DNA of 61,370 nt from Chlorobiota bacterium. GTDB taxonomy: Bacteria > Bacteroidota > Chlorobiia > Chlorobiales > Chlorobiaceae. Position 1 is the stretch's first letter, and each line of letters opens with the position of its first letter. The position numbers were made by a program, and so were the translations under genes. The DNA is taken from NCBI GenBank assembly GCA_016868665.1, contig VGGK01000014.1, forward strand, positions 1 to 61,370. Reading direction: 5' to 3'. The notes under the pieces are model-generated. The model was not told the origin of the DNA. It did not search any database and saw nothing but the letters and a program-made list of their open reading frames with translations. Shown in pieces: positions 19,421 to 50,692 of this stretch.

Positions 19421-21277
19421 TTAACCCTGAAGAACCTCACCATTGTAAACGGCCCGGCGCATTCCCCTGACAGAATTGCAAAGATAGACGAGATCTGCGG
19501 AGAGGAGATCGTCGGGAAAGAGCGGCTGCTCCCGGCAATCGGTACGCGTATCGAGAAAATAGTTCCTGCAGATACCGGCAAGCAACCCGGAAGAGAGCGG
19601 AGGTGTGCAGTAGCGCCCGTCTTTGCGGACGATCACATTGGCAATCGCCGATTCGGCAACTTCCCCCCGTTCATTGAGAAAGAGGACGTCGTCAAAACCG
19701 CGTTCCTGTGCCATACGGTAAAATCGGTCAAAGAATGACCTTGCAGTCGTCTTATGATACCTCAGGATATCGGATGAATCGACAGGTTCCCCACAAAGAC
19801 AGAGCCTGAGCGGCACCAGAGAAGGAGATGCGAGAACCGGTTCATGCGTAACCATCATGGATCCGTCAACCGAAAGCTCCAGCCGCACCTTGTAACGCCC
19901 TCCTGCATCGGCAAGTTCGCAATCAAGATCCTGAAGAAGGCGTTCGGCAAGCCCGATATCAAAACAAATGCCGAGGCCAACGGCAGATGCGCGCATCCTC
20001 TCGATATGTTCGGAAGCCCAGAGCATGCGACCGTTCCAGAGCAGACTCTCGAAAATCCCGCAACCTGCGTCGGCTGCGCCGGTCAGAATACGCGCTTTGA
20101 GCAGGCATTCACCGTACTCCTGCAGCGGATCGGAATCCCATACGATGCCGCTTCCCGAACCGTACATACCCTGGCCGTTGGCAAGTTCGAGAGTACGGAT
20201 AGCAACGCTGAACACCATATCACGATCAGGCTGCATGAAGCCGATGGCTCCGGTATATATTCCTCTCGATGACGATTCAAGCCTGTCGATCAGCTCCATA
20301 GCCCGAATCTTTGGTGCGCCGGTCACGGAACCGGATGGAAAAAGGGCCCTGAAGATATCGAACAGTTCCACCTCATTCCCGAGCTTTCCCCGAACGGTCG
20401 AAACCATCTGGTGAAGGGTGGGGTAGGTTTCCAATGCAAACATATTTTCCGTGACAACGGAACCCGGAACACAGATCCGGCCAAGATCGTTGCGCAGCAG
20501 GTCGACGATCATGAGATTCTCGGCACGGTTCTTCTGGCACGATACGAGTTCCTGGCGTTTCAGTGCGTCCTCTCCGGAGGTCGAGCCCCTCGGAGCCGTA
20601 CCCTTCATAGGCTTCGTTTCGATGAATCCATCTCCGCACCGGAAGAACAATTCAGGCGAAAGAGAAAGTACCGTCCGGTCGCCGGTATTGAGAAAAGCCG
20701 AATAGGCGGCCGGCTGGCTGCGGCGCAGCTCGGTAAAAAGCGCCGAAGGAGATCCTTCGAACGGAAAACGGAACCTGCCCGTCAGGTTTACCTGATAGAC
20801 ATCACCTGCAGCAAGACGTTCCCTTATGGCCGCGACAAGCGCAGCATATTCCTGCCTGTCATAGCCGAACGGGATGGATTCAGGCAGCGAAAACCAGCCG
20901 ATATCCTCTCCGGCAAGAAACGCTTCAATCTCCTCTCCGGCAAAACGCCCGGGTTCACCATAGACTCCGAACCAGGCAAGCGGCTCATCCGGAGCAGCCT
21001 TGCGCAAATAGTCCGCCGCATCCCTTTCGAACCCGTAACCTGCCTCGTAACCGATCCAGCCCGCCAGAAAAAAACCCGCTTCAAGCCTTGATTCAAGCTC
21101 CGAAAAAAAATCGCGCAAACCGGAAATCGAACGAAGTTCCAATATGTCCACCGGATCGGTGAACAGCAGGGCCTTTCCGCCGCCGGGAACATCCTGACCG
21201 GGAGTTTCGAGCCAGATCGATCCGTAACGGGCAAGAACACCTCCAGGGAAAGACCTGCCTGAATCGGACTCAATCAT
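19421..21277 (-). CDS. pabBC: Fused aminodeoxychorismate synthase I and aminodeoxychorismate lyase
   Basis: The protein has 618 residues. Residues 1 to about 395 are PabB (GDVYQVNLTGRF, then SPELFF, KPMKGTAPRG, the FPSGSVTGAPKIRAMELI segment, and GSGIVWDS). Residues about 400-618 are PabC, a PLP fold-IV lyase (GIFESLLW, then the Lys in YHKTT, then FLNERGEVAESAIANV). Together they turn chorismate and ammonia into p-aminobenzoate and pyruvate. The glutaminase PabA is not in the window. The gene overlaps ppx by 8 bp. Confidence 0.93.
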   Translation of the reverse strand: MIESDSGRSFPGGVLARYGSIWLETPGQDVPGGGKALLFTDPVDILELRSISGLRDFFSELESRLEAGFFLAGWIGYEAGYGFERDAADYLRKAAPDEPLAWFGVYGEPGRFAGEEIEAFLAGEDIGWFSLPESIPFGYDRQEYAALVAAIRERLAAGDVYQVNLTGRFRFPFEGSPSALFTELRRSQPAAYSAFLNTGDRTVLSLSPELFFRCGDGFIETKPMKGTAPRGSTSGEDALKRQELVSCQKNRAENLMIVDLLRNDLGRICVPGSVVTENMFALETYPTLHQMVSTVRGKLGNEVELFDIFRALFPSGSVTGAPKIRAMELIDRLESSSRGIYTGAIGFMQPDRDMVFSVAIRTLELANGQGMYGSGSGIVWDSDPLQEYGECLLKARILTGAADAGCGIFESLLWNGRMLWASEHIERMRASAVGLGICFDIGLAERLLQDLDCELADAGGRYKVRLELSVDGSMMVTHEPVLASPSLVPLRLCLCGEPVDSSDILRYHKTTARSFFDRFYRMAQERGFDDVLFLNERGEVAESAIANVIVRKDGRYCTPPLSSGLLAGICRNYFLDTRTDCREQPLFPDDLLSADLVYLCNSVRGMRRAVYNGEVLQG

Positions 21278-42708: not shown

Positions 42709-43629
42709 TTATCGAACTCCTTCCCAGTAGCGGTCAACAGCTCCCTGAAGTTCGGCAATGATGTCACGTCCTGCGGAGGATGCGAAAAGATGCGCGAATC
42801 TGCCCTGGCGCTTCAGATACTCTTCGACCGGAAGCCTTTTTTCAGGCAAAACGGTATGCTCCACCTTCCCGCCGATGAACTCCTTCAGCGGCCAGATCCC
42901 GGTCTGGACGGCAAGATTGCCGATCATGACGCTTTGTGCAGGTTCAAAACCCCAGCCCGTCGGACACGGAGAGAAAGCCAGAAGCATTCTCGGGCCACGG
43001 AGTGACCTGAGTTTTTCAACCTTTCTTGCAAGATCGAGAGGTTCCGATGCGCTCACCGTAGCGGCATACGGAGGATTATGGGCTGCCCAGAGGGAAAAAA
43101 GATCTTTTTTATTCCCCCGGAACCCGCCGTTCCCCCGGCTTGTCGATGTTGCCGCGCCGTGAGGAGTGGCCGGCGAATACTGCTGCCCGGTATTGCCGTA
43201 CCCTTCATTGTCGTAACAGAGGTAGATGAAATCCAGACCGCGGTCGAGGGCCCCGGACGTTGCGGAAAGCCCCATACCGTAAGCCGCACCGTCACCCGTC
43301 AGCACAACGACCTCGAGGTTTTCCTCTCGACGCAGACGATCCGATTCAAGCAGGATATCAAGGGCGTCGCGTACGCCCTGGGCACCTGCCGGAGCGGACG
43401 CCATTGCGGTATAGAGCCACGATCCCCTGAACGGAGTATAGGGATAGACCGAAAGCAGGGTCATGCAGCCGGCTGCATTAATGAAAACTGTATCGGAGCC
43501 GAGAAGGTCATAGAGCTGATGTATCACCAGAAGCCCGCCGCAACCTGCACACATGGGGGTTCCCGATCCGAACAGCCGGGTTGAAGGAAAATCCTCCATT
43601 CCACGGTATTGCATTCCGGATTCACTCAT
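42709..43629 (-). CDS. 2-oxoacid:ferredoxin oxidoreductase, beta (TPP) subunit
   Basis: The protein has 306 residues from ATG 43629, overlapping the alpha gene by 8 bp. It has the cluster motif MCAGCGG near residue 26, the TPP motif LTGDGAAYGMGLSATSG followed by CYDNEGYGNTG, and a later Cys in SPCPTGWG. This is the catalytic TPP and [4Fe-4S] subunit. Substrate specificity (pyruvate, 2-oxoisovalerate or an aryl 2-oxoacid) is not obvious. Confidence 0.9.
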   Translation of the reverse strand: MSESGMQYRGMEDFPSTRLFGSGTPMCAGCGGLLVIHQLYDLLGSDTVFINAAGCMTLLSVYPYTPFRGSWLYTAMASAPAGAQGVRDALDILLESDRLRREENLEVVVLTGDGAAYGMGLSATSGALDRGLDFIYLCYDNEGYGNTGQQYSPATPHGAATSTSRGNGGFRGNKKDLFSLWAAHNPPYAATVSASEPLDLARKVEKLRSLRGPRMLLAFSPCPTGWGFEPAQSVMIGNLAVQTGIWPLKEFIGGKVEHTVLPEKRLPVEEYLKRQGRFAHLFASSAGRDIIAELQGAVDRYWEGVR

Positions 43630-44869
43630 GGTTTCTGCAATGATTTTCCTGTTGCACGCTTGCGATCGCCTGTAATTTCCTGATATGCCGCAACTCGTCG
43701 GCAGTGTAGAGCAGCCTCGGCTCCGGAACAGATCCGGAGCGGATGGCATCAATGGTTACGCGGGCGATCCCGATAAACTCTTCTCCGCTGATATCCCTGC
43801 CGCCAAGACCGCCGATGAAGCTCAGAAGAACCGGCGCATTCTCCTGGCCGTAAAGTGCCGAGGCAAGTTCGGTGTACAGTATACCACCCTTTCCGACGGA
43901 AAGGTTCTGGTCGATGACGGCAATGCCCCGGACCCCTCGAAGCACCTGCCTTAACCGCCTTACCGGAAACGGGCGCAGCAGCCTTGGGCGTACCAGGCCG
44001 GCCCTGATTCCGCTCTCCCTCAGCGCATCAACTGCGTTTCCGGCCTTCGTTGCAAATGAGCCGGTCATGAGAAATACCATCTCGGCTTCATCGGTCCGGT
44101 ATGCCTCAACAGCCGGATGACTGCGGCCGAAACGGCCGAAAAACTCCCTTTCGAGATCATCGTAGACATCAAGCGCCTGCAGTGAGGCGAGATGCTGCTG
44201 ATACCGAAAATAGGAGTATTGCGAACCGCCAAGTACGGCAACCGCCTGACTGAGTGGAGCACCGGCACGGAAAGCCATTCCGAGCGGATCGAACCCCCCG
44301 ACAAATTCCGCTGCACCCTGTTGGTCGGGAAGCGTAACCGGTTCGCGTGTAAAGGACAGATAAAACCCGTCAAGGTTTACCATCACCGGCAGGCGGATGT
44401 CCGGATGCTCCGCAAGCCGGTAGGCAAGCAGCACCGCATCGACCACCTCCTGGCATGTGGAGCAATGGATCTGAATGAATCCGGAATCCCTTGCCGCGAA
44501 AACATCGTTATGATCGGGCTCGAGCGTGATGGGCGCAGAGAGGGCTCGGGAGACATTCACGAGTACGAACGGCACTCTCCAGCCGGCAACCGTGTAGAGC
44601 ATCTCCATGGCATAGAGCAGCCCCTGGCTCGACGTCGCGCTGAATACCCGCACTCCGGCGGCAGCAGCTCCGCCTGCTGCGGTCATCATCGAGTGTTCCG
44701 ATTCGAGGGTAACGAGCCTTCCCGGCATCTCGGACGAATCGATCCATGCAGCAAGGTTTTCAATGATTTCAGTCTGCGGCGTGATGGGAAATGCGGGAAT
44801 ATACTCCGCCTTCGCAAGCCTTGCCCCCCAGGCTGCGGCACCATTGCCGGTCAGGAGAAGCCTCTTCAT
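43622..44869 (-). CDS. 2-oxoacid:ferredoxin oxidoreductase, alpha subunit
   Basis: The protein has 415 residues from ATG 44869, overlapping the gamma-delta stop by 4 bp. It has the PorA-like features AFPITPQTEIIE, TLESEHSMMTAAGGAAAAGVR split near residues 56-77, and ATSSQGLLYAMEMLY, then a C-terminal half with VIDQNLSVGKGG and FIGGLGGRDIS. It pairs with the beta and gamma-delta subunits. Confidence 0.9.
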   Translation of the reverse strand: MKRLLLTGNGAAAWGARLAKAEYIPAFPITPQTEIIENLAAWIDSSEMPGRLVTLESEHSMMTAAGGAAAAGVRVFSATSSQGLLYAMEMLYTVAGWRVPFVLVNVSRALSAPITLEPDHNDVFAARDSGFIQIHCSTCQEVVDAVLLAYRLAEHPDIRLPVMVNLDGFYLSFTREPVTLPDQQGAAEFVGGFDPLGMAFRAGAPLSQAVAVLGGSQYSYFRYQQHLASLQALDVYDDLEREFFGRFGRSHPAVEAYRTDEAEMVFLMTGSFATKAGNAVDALRESGIRAGLVRPRLLRPFPVRRLRQVLRGVRGIAVIDQNLSVGKGGILYTELASALYGQENAPVLLSFIGGLGGRDISGEEFIGIARVTIDAIRSGSVPEPRLLYTADELRHIRKLQAIASVQQENHCRNHE

Positions 44870-45804
44870 ACTGCCTCCTCTCCATTCTCCTGCCGCACAC
44901 CCCGGCTTTCCGGTACGGCGGAAATTGCGTGAACGGGACACCGGGCAACACAGACCAGACAACCCTTGCAATGTTCGTAATCGATTGCGGGAATGCCATC
45001 ATCTCCAACATGTATGGCACTGTCGGGACAGAAACTGCTGCACAGCCACCAGCAGCGGCGGCACCGTGCTGTATCGATGACAGGACGGAATGTCCGCCAC
45101 ATGCCTGTTTTAAGCAGCCGGCTGGTCAGGCCGCCGAAAATAACCGGTGCGGCGACAGCAGCGGCATCATGGAAAAGTTCCACCCAGCCGGGAGGATTGT
45201 CGCAGGAAAATTCCCGGTCCGGTCGATCCCTGACAACGGCCTCGTATGGTGCAAGTGAATCGAACATCCTCGAAGCTTCCGAAAGGCTGCGTTCAAGAAC
45301 GGAAGGCGCAAGAAACCCGAGTTCCTCTCTTACCGCGCGTGCAAGGGTGCTTTTCGGAATTGAACCGCAAAGCCTCGCTGCGACAGCCGCACAGCAGACG
45401 CCTGCCATTGCCTGCCCGGCATACCCCTTTATGGCGTCAGGCCGGGGAATACAGACTATCGGCGAATCGAGATTGAGGCGGCTGCGCCACGTTCCCTCAG
45501 GCACGTCGCTCAGAATCGCCATGACCGTATCGGCTGACTGGCCTCCAAGCACGTCGGCCTCCGGAAGACCTGCAAGCGTATCGTCGGCAACAACCACAAG
45601 AGAGGGACGGCGGATCACTCCGCGCTCCTGAATGACGGACCGTGAAGCCCGGACATAGGCGAAAATCGGTGCGCCGCGCCGTTCGGCGCCATAGCGCGGC
45701 GCATCCTGCACGTCAAAGCCTTCAAGAAAAAAAGAAGTACCGAGGATTCGGCCTGCGGTTTTCATCCCCTGGCCTCCCCTGCCGTGAAACCTGATCCTGT
45801 ACAT
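44866..45804 (-). CDS. 2-oxoacid:ferredoxin oxidoreductase, fused gamma-delta subunit
   Basis: The protein has 312 residues. Residues 1-185 are the gamma domain (RFHGRGGQGMKTAGRILG; YGAERRGAPIFAYVR). Residues about 240-300 are a two-[4Fe-4S] delta ferredoxin (CRRCWWLCSSFCPD and CKGCLVCVARCPV). Gamma and delta are often separate genes, so this is a fused version. It lies 18 bp after the amino-acid dehydrogenase gene and is surely cotranscribed. Confidence 0.9.
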   Translation of the reverse strand: MYRIRFHGRGGQGMKTAGRILGTSFFLEGFDVQDAPRYGAERRGAPIFAYVRASRSVIQERGVIRRPSLVVVADDTLAGLPEADVLGGQSADTVMAILSDVPEGTWRSRLNLDSPIVCIPRPDAIKGYAGQAMAGVCCAAVAARLCGSIPKSTLARAVREELGFLAPSVLERSLSEASRMFDSLAPYEAVVRDRPDREFSCDNPPGWVELFHDAAAVAAPVIFGGLTSRLLKTGMWRTFRPVIDTARCRRCWWLCSSFCPDSAIHVGDDGIPAIDYEHCKGCLVCVARCPVHAISAVPESRGVRQENGEEAV

Positions 45805-45822
45805 GGCAGCATTCGCTGTTTT

Positions 45823-46956
45823 TCAGATGAAGCCCGGTGCCGAAGAAAAGAGCGAATACCTGCGATACCCCATGGCGTTTCTGATACGCCCGAGGGCAAG
45901 CTGCAGGGCCGCCTCACGCGGCTGAACTCCGCGGGCAATTGCATCACCAAGAACCTGGCGGGTATTTTCGGTAATCTTTTCTGCTACAACCCTCATTGCC
46001 TGTTCCTCTGTGGAGCCGCGATACTCCATTGCCGCACAGATCACGCCGCCCGCATTTGCAATAAAATCCGGAATGGAGATGATCCCACGACGATGAAGCT
46101 CCGATTCGGCAACCGGCGTGACCGGAATATTCGCTCCCTGTACAACCATCTTTGTCCTGAGTCTGCCGACGTTGGCCTCATGGATCACATCCGGCCTTGC
46201 GGCCGGAATCCAGATATCGCACTCGACATCGATCAGATCGTCAAGGGAAGCTCGGGTACCTCCGGTAAAATCAGCCACACTGCGATGCTCCCGCTTCAAT
46301 GCGACGAGTTTCTCCGCATCGAGACCATCTCTGTTCATAATCGAACCTTTGGAATCGGATGCCGCCACAAGCAGAGCGCCATGTGCGGCAAGCGTTCGTG
46401 CGACATGCATGCCTACGGCGCCGAAACCCTGAACTGCGACGCGCGCTCCGGCGAGGGAAAAATCGCAGAATTGAAGTGCAGCCTGAACAGCATTGAACAG
46501 ACCCCAGCCTGTTGCTCCGATCTCGTCGAGAGGTATACCGCCAAGATCTCGCGGCAGTGCGACCGCACGGCCGATTTCATCCCTCACCCAGGCCATGCAG
46601 GTCTCGTCGGTACCCATGTCGGGACCGAAGATGTACTCCTCGATGTTCCTGAGCGACCTTGCCATCGCCCTGATCAGCTCCTCTTTCCTTTCAACCGGCA
46701 TGGACGGATCGGCGGCGATCACCGATTTGCCTCCGCCATACGGCAGACCGGCCGCAGCATTTTTCAGCGTCATGGCTCGTGCAAGCCGCATGCACTCTTC
46801 AACGGAAACATCAGGAGCCATCCGCAGGCCGCCTATCGAGGGACCTCTCGCGACGTTGTCGACAACAAGCACTCCCCTCAGGCCAACCGAGGGTTCAAGG
46901 ACATGAATGACCTTTGAGGGCCCCATGTCATCGGCCAGGGCAAAGATATCCGGCAT
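45823..46956 (-). CDS. Glu/Leu/Phe/Val dehydrogenase family protein
   Basis: The protein has 377 residues. The substrate and catalytic lysines lie in MTLKNAAAGLPYGGGKS (Lys65, Lys77), followed by GPDMGT and the NAD(P) motif QGFGAVG with ASDSKGSI. The GFGAVG form and the length leave glutamate, leucine, valine and phenylalanine all possible. An excellent ribosome site (AAGGAGG) precedes ATG. It is the first gene of the operon with the oxidoreductase, so it likely interconverts an amino acid and the 2-oxoacid that enzyme uses. Confidence 0.88.
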   Translation of the reverse strand: MPDIFALADDMGPSKVIHVLEPSVGLRGVLVVDNVARGPSIGGLRMAPDVSVEECMRLARAMTLKNAAAGLPYGGGKSVIAADPSMPVERKEELIRAMARSLRNIEEYIFGPDMGTDETCMAWVRDEIGRAVALPRDLGGIPLDEIGATGWGLFNAVQAALQFCDFSLAGARVAVQGFGAVGMHVARTLAAHGALLVAASDSKGSIMNRDGLDAEKLVALKREHRSVADFTGGTRASLDDLIDVECDIWIPAARPDVIHEANVGRLRTKMVVQGANIPVTPVAESELHRRGIISIPDFIANAGGVICAAMEYRGSTEEQAMRVVAEKITENTRQVLGDAIARGVQPREAALQLALGRIRNAMGYRRYSLFSSAPGFI

Positions 46957-47111
46957 AGGTGTGCCTCCTTCGCGTTCGTTAGAGCAGCCGTACTACGAAA
47001 CACACGGAGAACAGGGCAATCGTAAAAACTGCCGAGCCTGTTCTATCATATACCGTTTCCGAATCTAAAAGGTGCCGGAACAGCAGCTGAATGGATCGAT
47101 ACCGCCGATGC

Positions 47112-50692
<3,581 letters not shown>

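Follow-up and report, generated by a model that had tools for sequence, protein, structure and literature searches.

A putative reversible route between acyl-CoA and aliphatic, probably branched-chain, amino acids encoded by a four-gene operon of a green sulfur bacterium

In Bacillus, branched acyl-CoA is supplied by leucine dehydrogenase (LeuDH), Bkd and Ptb/Buk. Staphylococcus aureus is described as relying on Bkd and MbcS, the latter with 2-methylbutyrate and isobutyrate as substrates (S. aureus study). Rumen anaerobes and methanogens are reported to carboxylate branched acids reductively (Robinson and Allison 1969, as referenced in PMC2812497), and the reductive carboxylation of 2-methylbutyrate to isoleucine has been proposed for a methanogen (PMC2812497). 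Knowledge of this physiology is decades old, and its dedicated genes have been hard to name. The portion of PMC2812497 concerned with it names neither a dedicated dehydrogenase nor a gene cluster, and in Rhodospirillum rubrum a LeuDH and a pyruvate/ketoisovalerate oxidoreductase are given under distant locus tags (PMC7238569).

The operon that we describe here lies on the minus strand of a 61,370-nucleotide stretch of DNA (the window) from a Chlorobiota bacterium. It comprises an ELFV-family amino-acid dehydrogenase with a LeuDH-like side-chain pocket (DH; 45823..46956, 377 aa, ATG start), followed by the fused gamma-delta subunit (44866..45804, 312 aa), the alpha subunit (43622..44869, 415 aa) and the TPP-binding beta subunit with the proximal [4Fe-4S] cluster (42709..43629, 306 aa) of a 2-oxoacid:ferredoxin oxidoreductase (KOR). 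All four frames are open, and the tight linkage noted in the original prediction holds, with an 18-bp gap between DH and gamma-delta and overlaps of 4 bp between gamma-delta and alpha and of 8 bp between alpha and beta. Because of this spacing and gene order the four genes are probably cotranscribed. Shine-Dalgarno-like AGGAGG sequences precede DH (46964..46969, minus strand) and, within the end of gamma-delta, alpha (44874..44879, minus strand). The family assignments of all four proteins are matches far beyond chance: PF00208 (5.8e-54) and PF02812 (8.5e-25) for DH; PF01558 (1.1e-19) for gamma-delta, together with TIGR02175, TIGR02179 and a 2x[4Fe-4S] ferredoxin domain at residues 241-299 (44908..45084, minus strand; PF13237/PF00037, 1.5e-07 for PF13237); PF01855 (5.2e-53) and PF17147 (3.2e-27) for alpha; and PF02775 (4.8e-16) for beta.

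We propose, with a probability of roughly 0.55, that these genes encode a two-enzyme reversible route acting on one aliphatic, likely branched-chain, 2-oxoacid and running more likely in the reductive direction. DH would interconvert an aliphatic L-amino acid, most likely valine, isoleucine or leucine and perhaps 2-aminobutyrate, and its 2-oxoacid, using NAD(P)H and ammonia, and the TPP-dependent KOR would interconvert this 2-oxoacid plus CoA and acyl-CoA plus CO2, with two electrons passing via the proximal cluster and then the gamma-delta ferredoxin domain to ferredoxin. The chemical steps would be identical to those of the Bkd supply (amino acid, 2-oxoacid, acyl-CoA, acid) and similar to the conversion of 2-methylbutyrate to isoleucine proposed for a methanogen. 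By contrast with Bkd, an NAD-linked lipoate complex, the KOR is ferredoxin-linked and reversible, and many relatives of DH-KOR combine it in one operon with an AMP-forming ligase.

The catalytic residues of DH (K65, K77 and D113, equivalent to K68, K80 and D115 of LeuDH) are kept in 80/80 orthologues. Glutamate dehydrogenase (GluDH) holds the gamma-carboxylate of its substrate with K89 and S380 (PMC2723916), and at these positions all 80 orthologues carry I, L or V (I41 in DH) and A or G (A308), whereas five of five GDH-like controls, the host's own included, retain K and S. DH has therefore lost both glutamate-specific residues; the same study reports that swapping the pair alone fails to convert GluDH specificity (PMC2723916). 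Against the curated GDH equivalog NF040817 DH scores 216 bits, below the cut-off of 750, and the host's other ELFV gene, which is GDH-like and has the pair, 623 bits, also under it. DH resembles LeuDH (1leh, 6acf) in its catalytic residues and in having aliphatic residues in place of the glutamate-binding pair, and at the LeuDH specificity positions L40, A113, V291 and V294 it has I41, G111, V305 and A308, which are hydrophobic or small but not identical. It differs from LeuDH by A308 for V294 and G111 for A113, by its separate branch (in a quick tree with long branches DH orthologues form their own clade, with two LeuDH sequences outside on a long branch) and by its best structural matches, which are GluDHs. 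Identity to a Staphylococcus LeuDH-like protein is 29%. The AlphaFold2 model (pLDDT 86.8) has the GDH-superfamily fold, with Z scores of 47.3 to a GDH and 39.8 to phenylalanine dehydrogenase (PheDH), its backbone being nearer GluDH than PheDH; no LeuDH appears among the best 50 matches, which makes the comparison uninformative on LeuDH. We set this structure aside as a specificity test, as it reveals the superfamily fold only.

The combination of G111 and A308 makes the pocket roomier than that of LeuDH, so that Phe-like substrates would be possible for DH. DH and KOR might then turn phenylacetyl-CoA or indoleacetyl-CoA into phenylalanine or tryptophan, an idea in line with an old phenylpyruvate synthase activity reportedly found in Chlorobium extracts and with the presence of tryptophan dehydrogenase and PheDH in the superfamily of DH. 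Position 113, where DH has G111, is one of the two positions altered in PheDH (PMC2723916). Yet V305 matches both LeuDH and GluDH, and against the IOR model the KOR alpha scores no more than 35 bits. Elsewhere the genome encodes another KOR alpha, of the indolepyruvate type (529 bits, cut-off 651), and a PaaK-like phenylacetate-CoA ligase frame (607 bits, cut-off 646) starts 0.3 kb after it, which makes aromatic substrates less likely for the operon. Among relatives, the proteobacterial ligase discussed below is compatible with aromatics, but the Macs-type ligase of the methanogens is of an aliphatic type. Altogether we regard an aromatic role as highly improbable. From the sequence comparisons we infer instead that the substrate is most likely aliphatic and probably branched-chain. 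The presence in the genome of distinct genes for a PFOR, an oxoacid KOR and IOR-like and GDH-like proteins favours this reading.

The KOR has the TPP motif and the ligands of three [4Fe-4S] clusters in all aligned orthologues (41/41 and 44/44): alpha T30 and R108, as well as beta GDG 112-114, N141 and cysteines C27, C30, C55 and C222, are kept in 41/41, and all eight ferredoxin-domain cysteines of gamma-delta in 44/44. The alpha, beta, gamma and delta domains and the TPP and cluster ligands are common to this enzyme and to the Methanosarcina acetivorans pyruvate:ferredoxin oxidoreductase (POR; 9bt4) and archaeal POR/VOR. The window's KOR departs from them by its fused gamma-delta, by residue 117 (E in 37/41 and G in 4/41, against W or F in the aligned pyruvate enzymes) and by scores below cut-off with both POR models (PorA_Arch 365 for 550, PorB 245 for 405) and VOR models (PRK08366 279 for 646, PRK11864 227 for 405); its alpha sequences form a separate 42-row clade on a long stem. 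Gamma-delta exceeds the curated cut-offs of PorC_KorC (TIGR02175, 88.4 bits for 81.1) and PorD_KorD (TIGR02179, 86.1 for 60.05), and beta falls under that of TIGR02177 (35 bits for 262). The fused gamma-delta is shared with the Moorella thermoacetica oxalate oxidoreductase (OOR; 5c4i, 5exd), whose fused delta subunit gives the lowest E-value in Foldseek with a whole-chain TM of only 0.40-0.48; the gamma-delta model itself is middling (pLDDT 78.5, pTM 0.62, residues 199-235 under 50). Unlike the window's KOR, OOR has R at the position of T30; the scores with OOR models are far below cut-off (alpha 213 for 500, beta 195 for 590, delta 71 for 230), and the first cluster motif of gamma-delta, CX2CX3CX3CP, has one additional residue in 40/44 aligned orthologues.

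Among NCBIfam models, alpha and beta both score best with those for pyruvate synthase, although below cut-off. This would fit a second pyruvate/2-oxobutyrate:ferredoxin oxidoreductase, with DH as an alanine or 2-aminobutyrate dehydrogenase, the pair forming a connection between acetate or propionate and small amino acids. Such a system would also suit the propionate-CoA-ligase-like gene of the genome and the PALP+ACT protein found after the ligase in loci L012 and L025 of the relatives, which we take to be a threonine dehydratase and which would make 2-oxobutyrate. However, the genome already encodes a PFOR (TIGR02176, 1239 bits for a cut-off of 911, over 801 residues), the only methanogen genome checked in this respect (G091) holds a second KOR alpha (39%) beside one of the DH-KOR type (57%), and the long stem separates the alpha clade from M. 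acetivorans POR. We therefore consider this explanation quite unlikely. The two findings that the original prediction had said would undo it did not materialize at the sequence level: the KOR as sole pyruvate synthase is ruled out by the PFOR above its cut-off, and a glutamate-only dehydrogenase is unlikely given the residue differences and a second, GDH-like gene that keeps the glutamate-specific pair.

Gene neighbourhoods in relatives show a tight association of DH, KOR and ligases. In 23 loci retrieved by KOR alpha alone, DH was in the same cluster in 22 and a CoA ligase likewise in 22, the remaining contig being cut in each case; this KOR subfamily, with DH in every checkable locus and a ligase in all but the cut contig, thus amounts to a concrete enzyme set. 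No DH occurred near lower-identity KORs at five loci, two of them on contigs under 5 kb. Starting from DH (80 loci), KOR subunits were present in 51, an AMP-forming ligase in 47, an ADP-forming ligase in 8, and KOR plus ligase in 35. Among genomes whose DH locus lacks KOR, 27 of 29 have no KOR orthologue anywhere, so DH does not need KOR. With the ligase added, the chain from acid to acyl-CoA, 2-oxoacid and amino acid is complete in the relatives, where a co-encoded acyl-CoA ligase would close it to the free acid. For the Macs-type archaeal ligase, as in Methanococcoides, the best PDB match is 3etc (MacsMa, 2-methylbutyrate-preferring) and the best NCBIfam model MbcS (571 bits, below the cut-off of 850); this ligase type resembles enzymes with a preference for 2-methylbutyrate or isobutyrate. 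These matches, like the PALP+ACT protein behind the ligase in L012 and L025, give hints on the substrate of the proposed route. The commoner, proteobacterial ligase, of PRK12583 type, has a feruloyl-CoA synthetase among its nearest solved structures, and its acid is therefore not fixed by sequence.

Six of the 80 DH loci, all proteobacterial, have genes for E1 alpha, E1 beta and E2 of an oxoacid dehydrogenase near DH and ligase, and KOR in none. Since E1/E2 complexes work oxidatively, the oxidative direction is implied at those loci, and the same might apply to the operon: DH would deaminate branched-chain amino acids, KOR would yield branched acyl-CoA and reduced ferredoxin, and the ligase of the relatives would make that acyl-CoA from free acid, the product serving for fatty-acid starters or catabolism. 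To our knowledge, however, amino acids are not the livelihood of the methanogens that carry the module; in addition, partner ligases are mostly AMP-forming and favour activation, and reduced ferredoxin is expected to be plentiful in a green sulfur phototroph. The E1 alpha is nearest a pyruvate dehydrogenase E1, then 2-oxoacid dehydrogenase and BCKDH, which leaves its substrate itself unsure, and we discarded it as proof of a branched substrate. Precedents for the oxidative reading are the S. aureus Bkd and MbcS, which likewise serve branched fatty acids (S. aureus study), and the ADP-forming ligases of Pyrococcus furiosus, described as converting acyl-CoA to acid and ATP. On balance we judge an oxidative role unlikely, if still a serious contender.

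The reductive direction, acyl-CoA plus CO2 to 2-oxoacid to amino acid, would be likelier in the host because light makes strongly reduced ferredoxin. Low-potential ferredoxin is plausible there, since its genome includes a gene for FMO (PF02327, 751 bits), a bacteriochlorophyll protein of green sulfur phototrophs. Unlike the module of its relatives, with which it shares DH adjoining this KOR subfamily, the operon has no acyl-CoA ligase, its neighbours being ligA, 155 bp away, and, at a distance of 88 bp, a LOG/lysine-decarboxylase-like gene; none of the genome's seven AMP-binding matches is an orthologue of the partner ligase (identity at most 30%, AMP-binding genes only). The acyl-CoA could come from a ligase elsewhere in the genome, such as the propionate-CoA-ligase-like one. 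Of the original claim that the oxidoreductase can act as an acyl-CoA carboxylase whose product can be aminated, what stands is that DH and KOR would work in series on one 2-oxoacid, as their association and the ligases suggest, with reduced ferredoxin plausible; the operon lacks a ligase to feed the carboxylating direction, and at the six loci with E1/E2 in place of KOR the evidence favours the opposite direction. Substrate, direction and physiological role of the operon are thus what we infer from these comparisons.

Carriers of the enzyme set include a phototroph and named methanogens, among them Methanococcoides. Tentatively, and with somewhat more doubt than confidence, ligase, KOR and DH could form a horizontally moving, hitherto unassigned three-step CO2-fixing route from short branched acids to branched-chain amino acids. 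Green sulfur bacteria, proteobacteria and methanogens would have this route in common, and in some proteobacteria E1/E2 would take the place of KOR. A literature search outside which most subscription papers fell yielded no paper on the DH-KOR gene set among the matches listed, which is weak evidence of novelty. Our results caution against annotating such genes as pyruvate synthase plus glutamate dehydrogenase.

Within the genus the operon is dispensable. Among 65 genomes it is intact only in that of the window, inserted between ligA and the LOG-like gene; one further genome has a broken copy at the identical site, which in 24 relatives is empty. Base composition gives no sign of recent transfer (GC3 0.58-0.64 in the four genes, 0.636 in ligA). 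On plasmids, the best KOR alpha has 40% identity, and two such loci have KOR without an annotated adjacent DH. One DH homologue is plasmid-borne (62%, Photobacterium): with no KOR in the 19 kb retrieved, it adjoins a ligase of the proteobacterial type.

The dehydrogenase gene (45823-46956, minus strand), coding for a two-domain ELFV enzyme, is followed on the same strand by genes for a gamma-delta subunit in which PorC and PorD are fused (44866-45804), an alpha subunit (43622-44869) and a beta subunit (42709-43629), which together constitute a 2-oxoacid:ferredoxin oxidoreductase (KOR). These coordinates bear out the tight linkage of the four genes in the original prediction: 18 bp separate the dehydrogenase from gamma-delta, and the next genes overlap by 4 bp (gamma-delta/alpha) and 8 bp (alpha/beta). 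The upstream neighbour is ligA, the downstream one a LOG/lysine-decarboxylase-like gene. The operon is real and coherent, and it probably works in its host. Its chemistry is known and such a dedicated gene set is unusual; no description of it was found in the literature searched, which was covered in part. The host belongs to the green sulfur phototrophs: the nearest dehydrogenase match is from a Chlorobiota MAG, and a gene for the FMO bacteriochlorophyll protein is present (PF02327, 751 bits), a family without matches in 14 control genomes. A 513-aa protein encoded at 49151-50692 (minus strand), which matches no Pfam or NCBIfam family at E 0.001, resembles the CruA-type lycopene cyclases that green sulfur bacteria have.

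The association of dehydrogenase and KOR recurs well beyond this host. Among the best 80 of 253 confirmed dehydrogenase loci, many of them truncated by contig ends, KOR subunits occur nearby in 51 (all three in 41), a proteobacterial PRK12583-type AMP-forming acyl-CoA ligase in 43, a Macs-type AMP-forming ligase in four and an ADP-forming ligase in eight; 35 loci combine KOR with a ligase and 70 have at least one of the two. Where at least 6 kb of downstream sequence is available (53 loci), KOR is present in 37, a ligase in 39, both in 29 and neither in six. The usual proteobacterial order is dehydrogenase, gamma-delta, alpha, beta, ligase. Among 29 genomes with a KOR-less dehydrogenase locus, an alpha orthologue lies elsewhere in two (L018, 57% identity; L052, 67%), and the other 27 have no alpha match above 40% beyond fragment length. 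A 62-residue alpha remnant between dehydrogenase and ligase in a Thiotrichaceae MAG (L039, 9186-9371) suggests deletion of KOR from a dehydrogenase-KOR-ligase operon and, therefore, that such loss has occurred.

The converse search, with KOR alpha alone as query (E 1e-90 or better), was centred on an Ectothiorhodospiraceae MAG (G104), picked because it was already known from the first set, and on a Methanolobus genome (G094); the two directions share data (L182 = L037, L188 = L012 and L201 = L013, among others). Matches came from 10 of the 274 genomes sampled in the class of G104, at 66-72% identity and with G104 itself counted, and from 35 of 199 in that of G094, 13 at 56-61% and 22 at 46-49%. 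All 10 loci of the former, and all 13 plus five of the 22 of the latter, were fetched. The dehydrogenase clusters with KOR in 9/10 and 13/13 (56-61%) loci, respectively, counting a piece at a contig edge in L190, and a ligase does so in the same proportions, counting L204, which has only pieces of the ADP-forming type. The single G104-class locus lacking the dehydrogenase (L187) starts inside gamma-delta, and the single one lacking the ligase (L189) stops after beta. Neither gene was found in the five lower-identity loci, two of them (L205, L208) on contigs under 5 kb. Three methanogens (L192-L194) combine the three KOR genes with those for both subunits (alpha, beta) of an ADP-forming ligase and for a Macs-type ligase, the dehydrogenase being divergent; ADP- and AMP-forming ligases in one run with KOR look like a choice of direction.

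The catalytic parts of KOR are conserved. Leaving out shorter matches and the broken copy L007, T30 and R108 of alpha and the TPP motif and four cysteines of beta are kept in 41/41 aligned orthologues, and the eight cysteines of gamma-delta in 44/44, its first cluster motif (CX2CX3CX3CP) having one extra residue in 40 and a gap there in the remaining four. Alpha position 117 is E in 37 of 41 orthologues and G in four; the residue there is W or F in the aligned pyruvate enzymes and G in oxalate oxidoreductase (OOR). By E-value, the best fold matches of the predicted gamma-delta model (mean pLDDT 78.5, pTM 0.62) are to the fused OOR delta subunit, at a whole-chain TM of 0.40-0.48.

Specificity of leucine dehydrogenase (LeuDH) is assigned to L40, A113, V291 and V294, positions 40 and 294 corresponding to K89 and S380 of glutamate dehydrogenase (GluDH), a pair insufficient by itself to convert GluDH, according to PMC2723916. 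Across 80 orthologues of our dehydrogenase, position 40 is I in 76, L in three and V in one; position 294 A in 79 and G in one; position 291 V in 79 and A in one; and position 113 A in 44 and G in 36. The window protein has I, G, V and A at positions 40, 113, 291 and 294. Because the K and S positions are replaced here and kept in 5/5 GDH-like controls, including the host's second ELFV protein, the glutamate clamp is gone at the sequence level, and the predicted pocket is hydrophobic and slightly roomier than that of LeuDH. Against a LeuDH-like reading, the best structural matches are GluDHs, the family forms a separate clade in a quick tree with long branches, and exchange of this residue pair is, as noted, not enough to convert GluDH.

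Judging from gene content, our best guess for the substrate is an aliphatic branched acid, based on elimination by other host enzymes and on ligase types. The host also has a two-subunit oxoacid KOR, a pyruvate:ferredoxin oxidoreductase that scores over its cut-off and an indolepyruvate-type alpha (L004, 1375-3069, contig C18; below cut-off). A PaaK-like phenylacetate-CoA ligase frame (L103, 919-2541, also C18; below cut-off) starts 0.3 kb past the latter, and the pair would follow the same acid/oxoacid scheme with aromatic compounds. The proteobacterial ligase leaves the acid unfixed, since it passes the threshold of a general fatty-acid-CoA-ligase model and the closest proteins of known structure are mixed (fatty-acyl-CoA synthase, feruloyl-CoA synthetase). 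In L012 and L025 the ligase gene is followed by one for a PALP+ACT protein that we take to be threonine dehydratase. The best PDB hit of the Macs-type methanogen ligase is 3etc, that is, MacsMa, which prefers 2-methylbutyrate (PMC10455477); the best NCBIfam model for the methanogen ligase, scoring below cut-off, is MbcS, which activates 2-methylbutyrate and isobutyrate (PMC10026030).

AMP-forming ligases and methanogen hosts favour the direction from acid to amino acid, and in a rumen methanogen isoleucine formation via reductive carboxylation of 2-methylbutyrate was inferred (PMC2812497). Six loci that lack KOR but carry genes for E1 alpha, E1 beta and E2 (L019, L036, L044, L046, L061, L080) favour, in those hosts, the opposite course from amino acid to acyl-CoA; in L036, E1 alpha resembles a PDH E1 most, then a 2-oxoacid dehydrogenase and BCKDH. 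A green sulfur bacterium should have ample reduced ferredoxin, which favours carboxylation. The window's operon has no ligase gene, and none of the seven host AMP-binding matches exceeds 30% identity with the partner ligases; one of them, propionate-CoA-ligase-like (777 bits, cut-off 955), might supply acyl-CoA. Two class IV aminotransferase matches in the host mean that the dehydrogenase is perhaps not the sole aminating route for branched oxoacids. The window also encodes a chorismate-binding enzyme fused to a class IV aminotransferase (19421-21277, minus strand).

Within the genus, some of whose genomes are incomplete, an alpha orthologue occurs in one of 65 genomes, the window's own, and a paralogue at 39-41% identity in seven others (e.g. 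L106, 1441-2673). Among 37 genus genomes, orthologous dehydrogenase matches were restricted to the window genome and G032, with a C-terminal fragment containing a stop in G008. Of 26 loci fetched from relatives, 24 have ligA and the LOG-like gene no more than about 50 bp apart, and the remaining two gave no ligA hit. In G032 the closest relative's copy (L007, 8001-10258; L088) occupies this same site in degraded form: the dehydrogenase has an early frame change, alpha is missing with gamma-delta joined to beta, and beta has a frame change. The dehydrogenase tree singles out no donor; in a quick alpha tree the window protein falls among proteobacterial and deltaproteobacterial sequences (fork support 88, no starred set). 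This distribution fits acquisition at one site and later decay in one lineage, and further relatives may have lost the operon.
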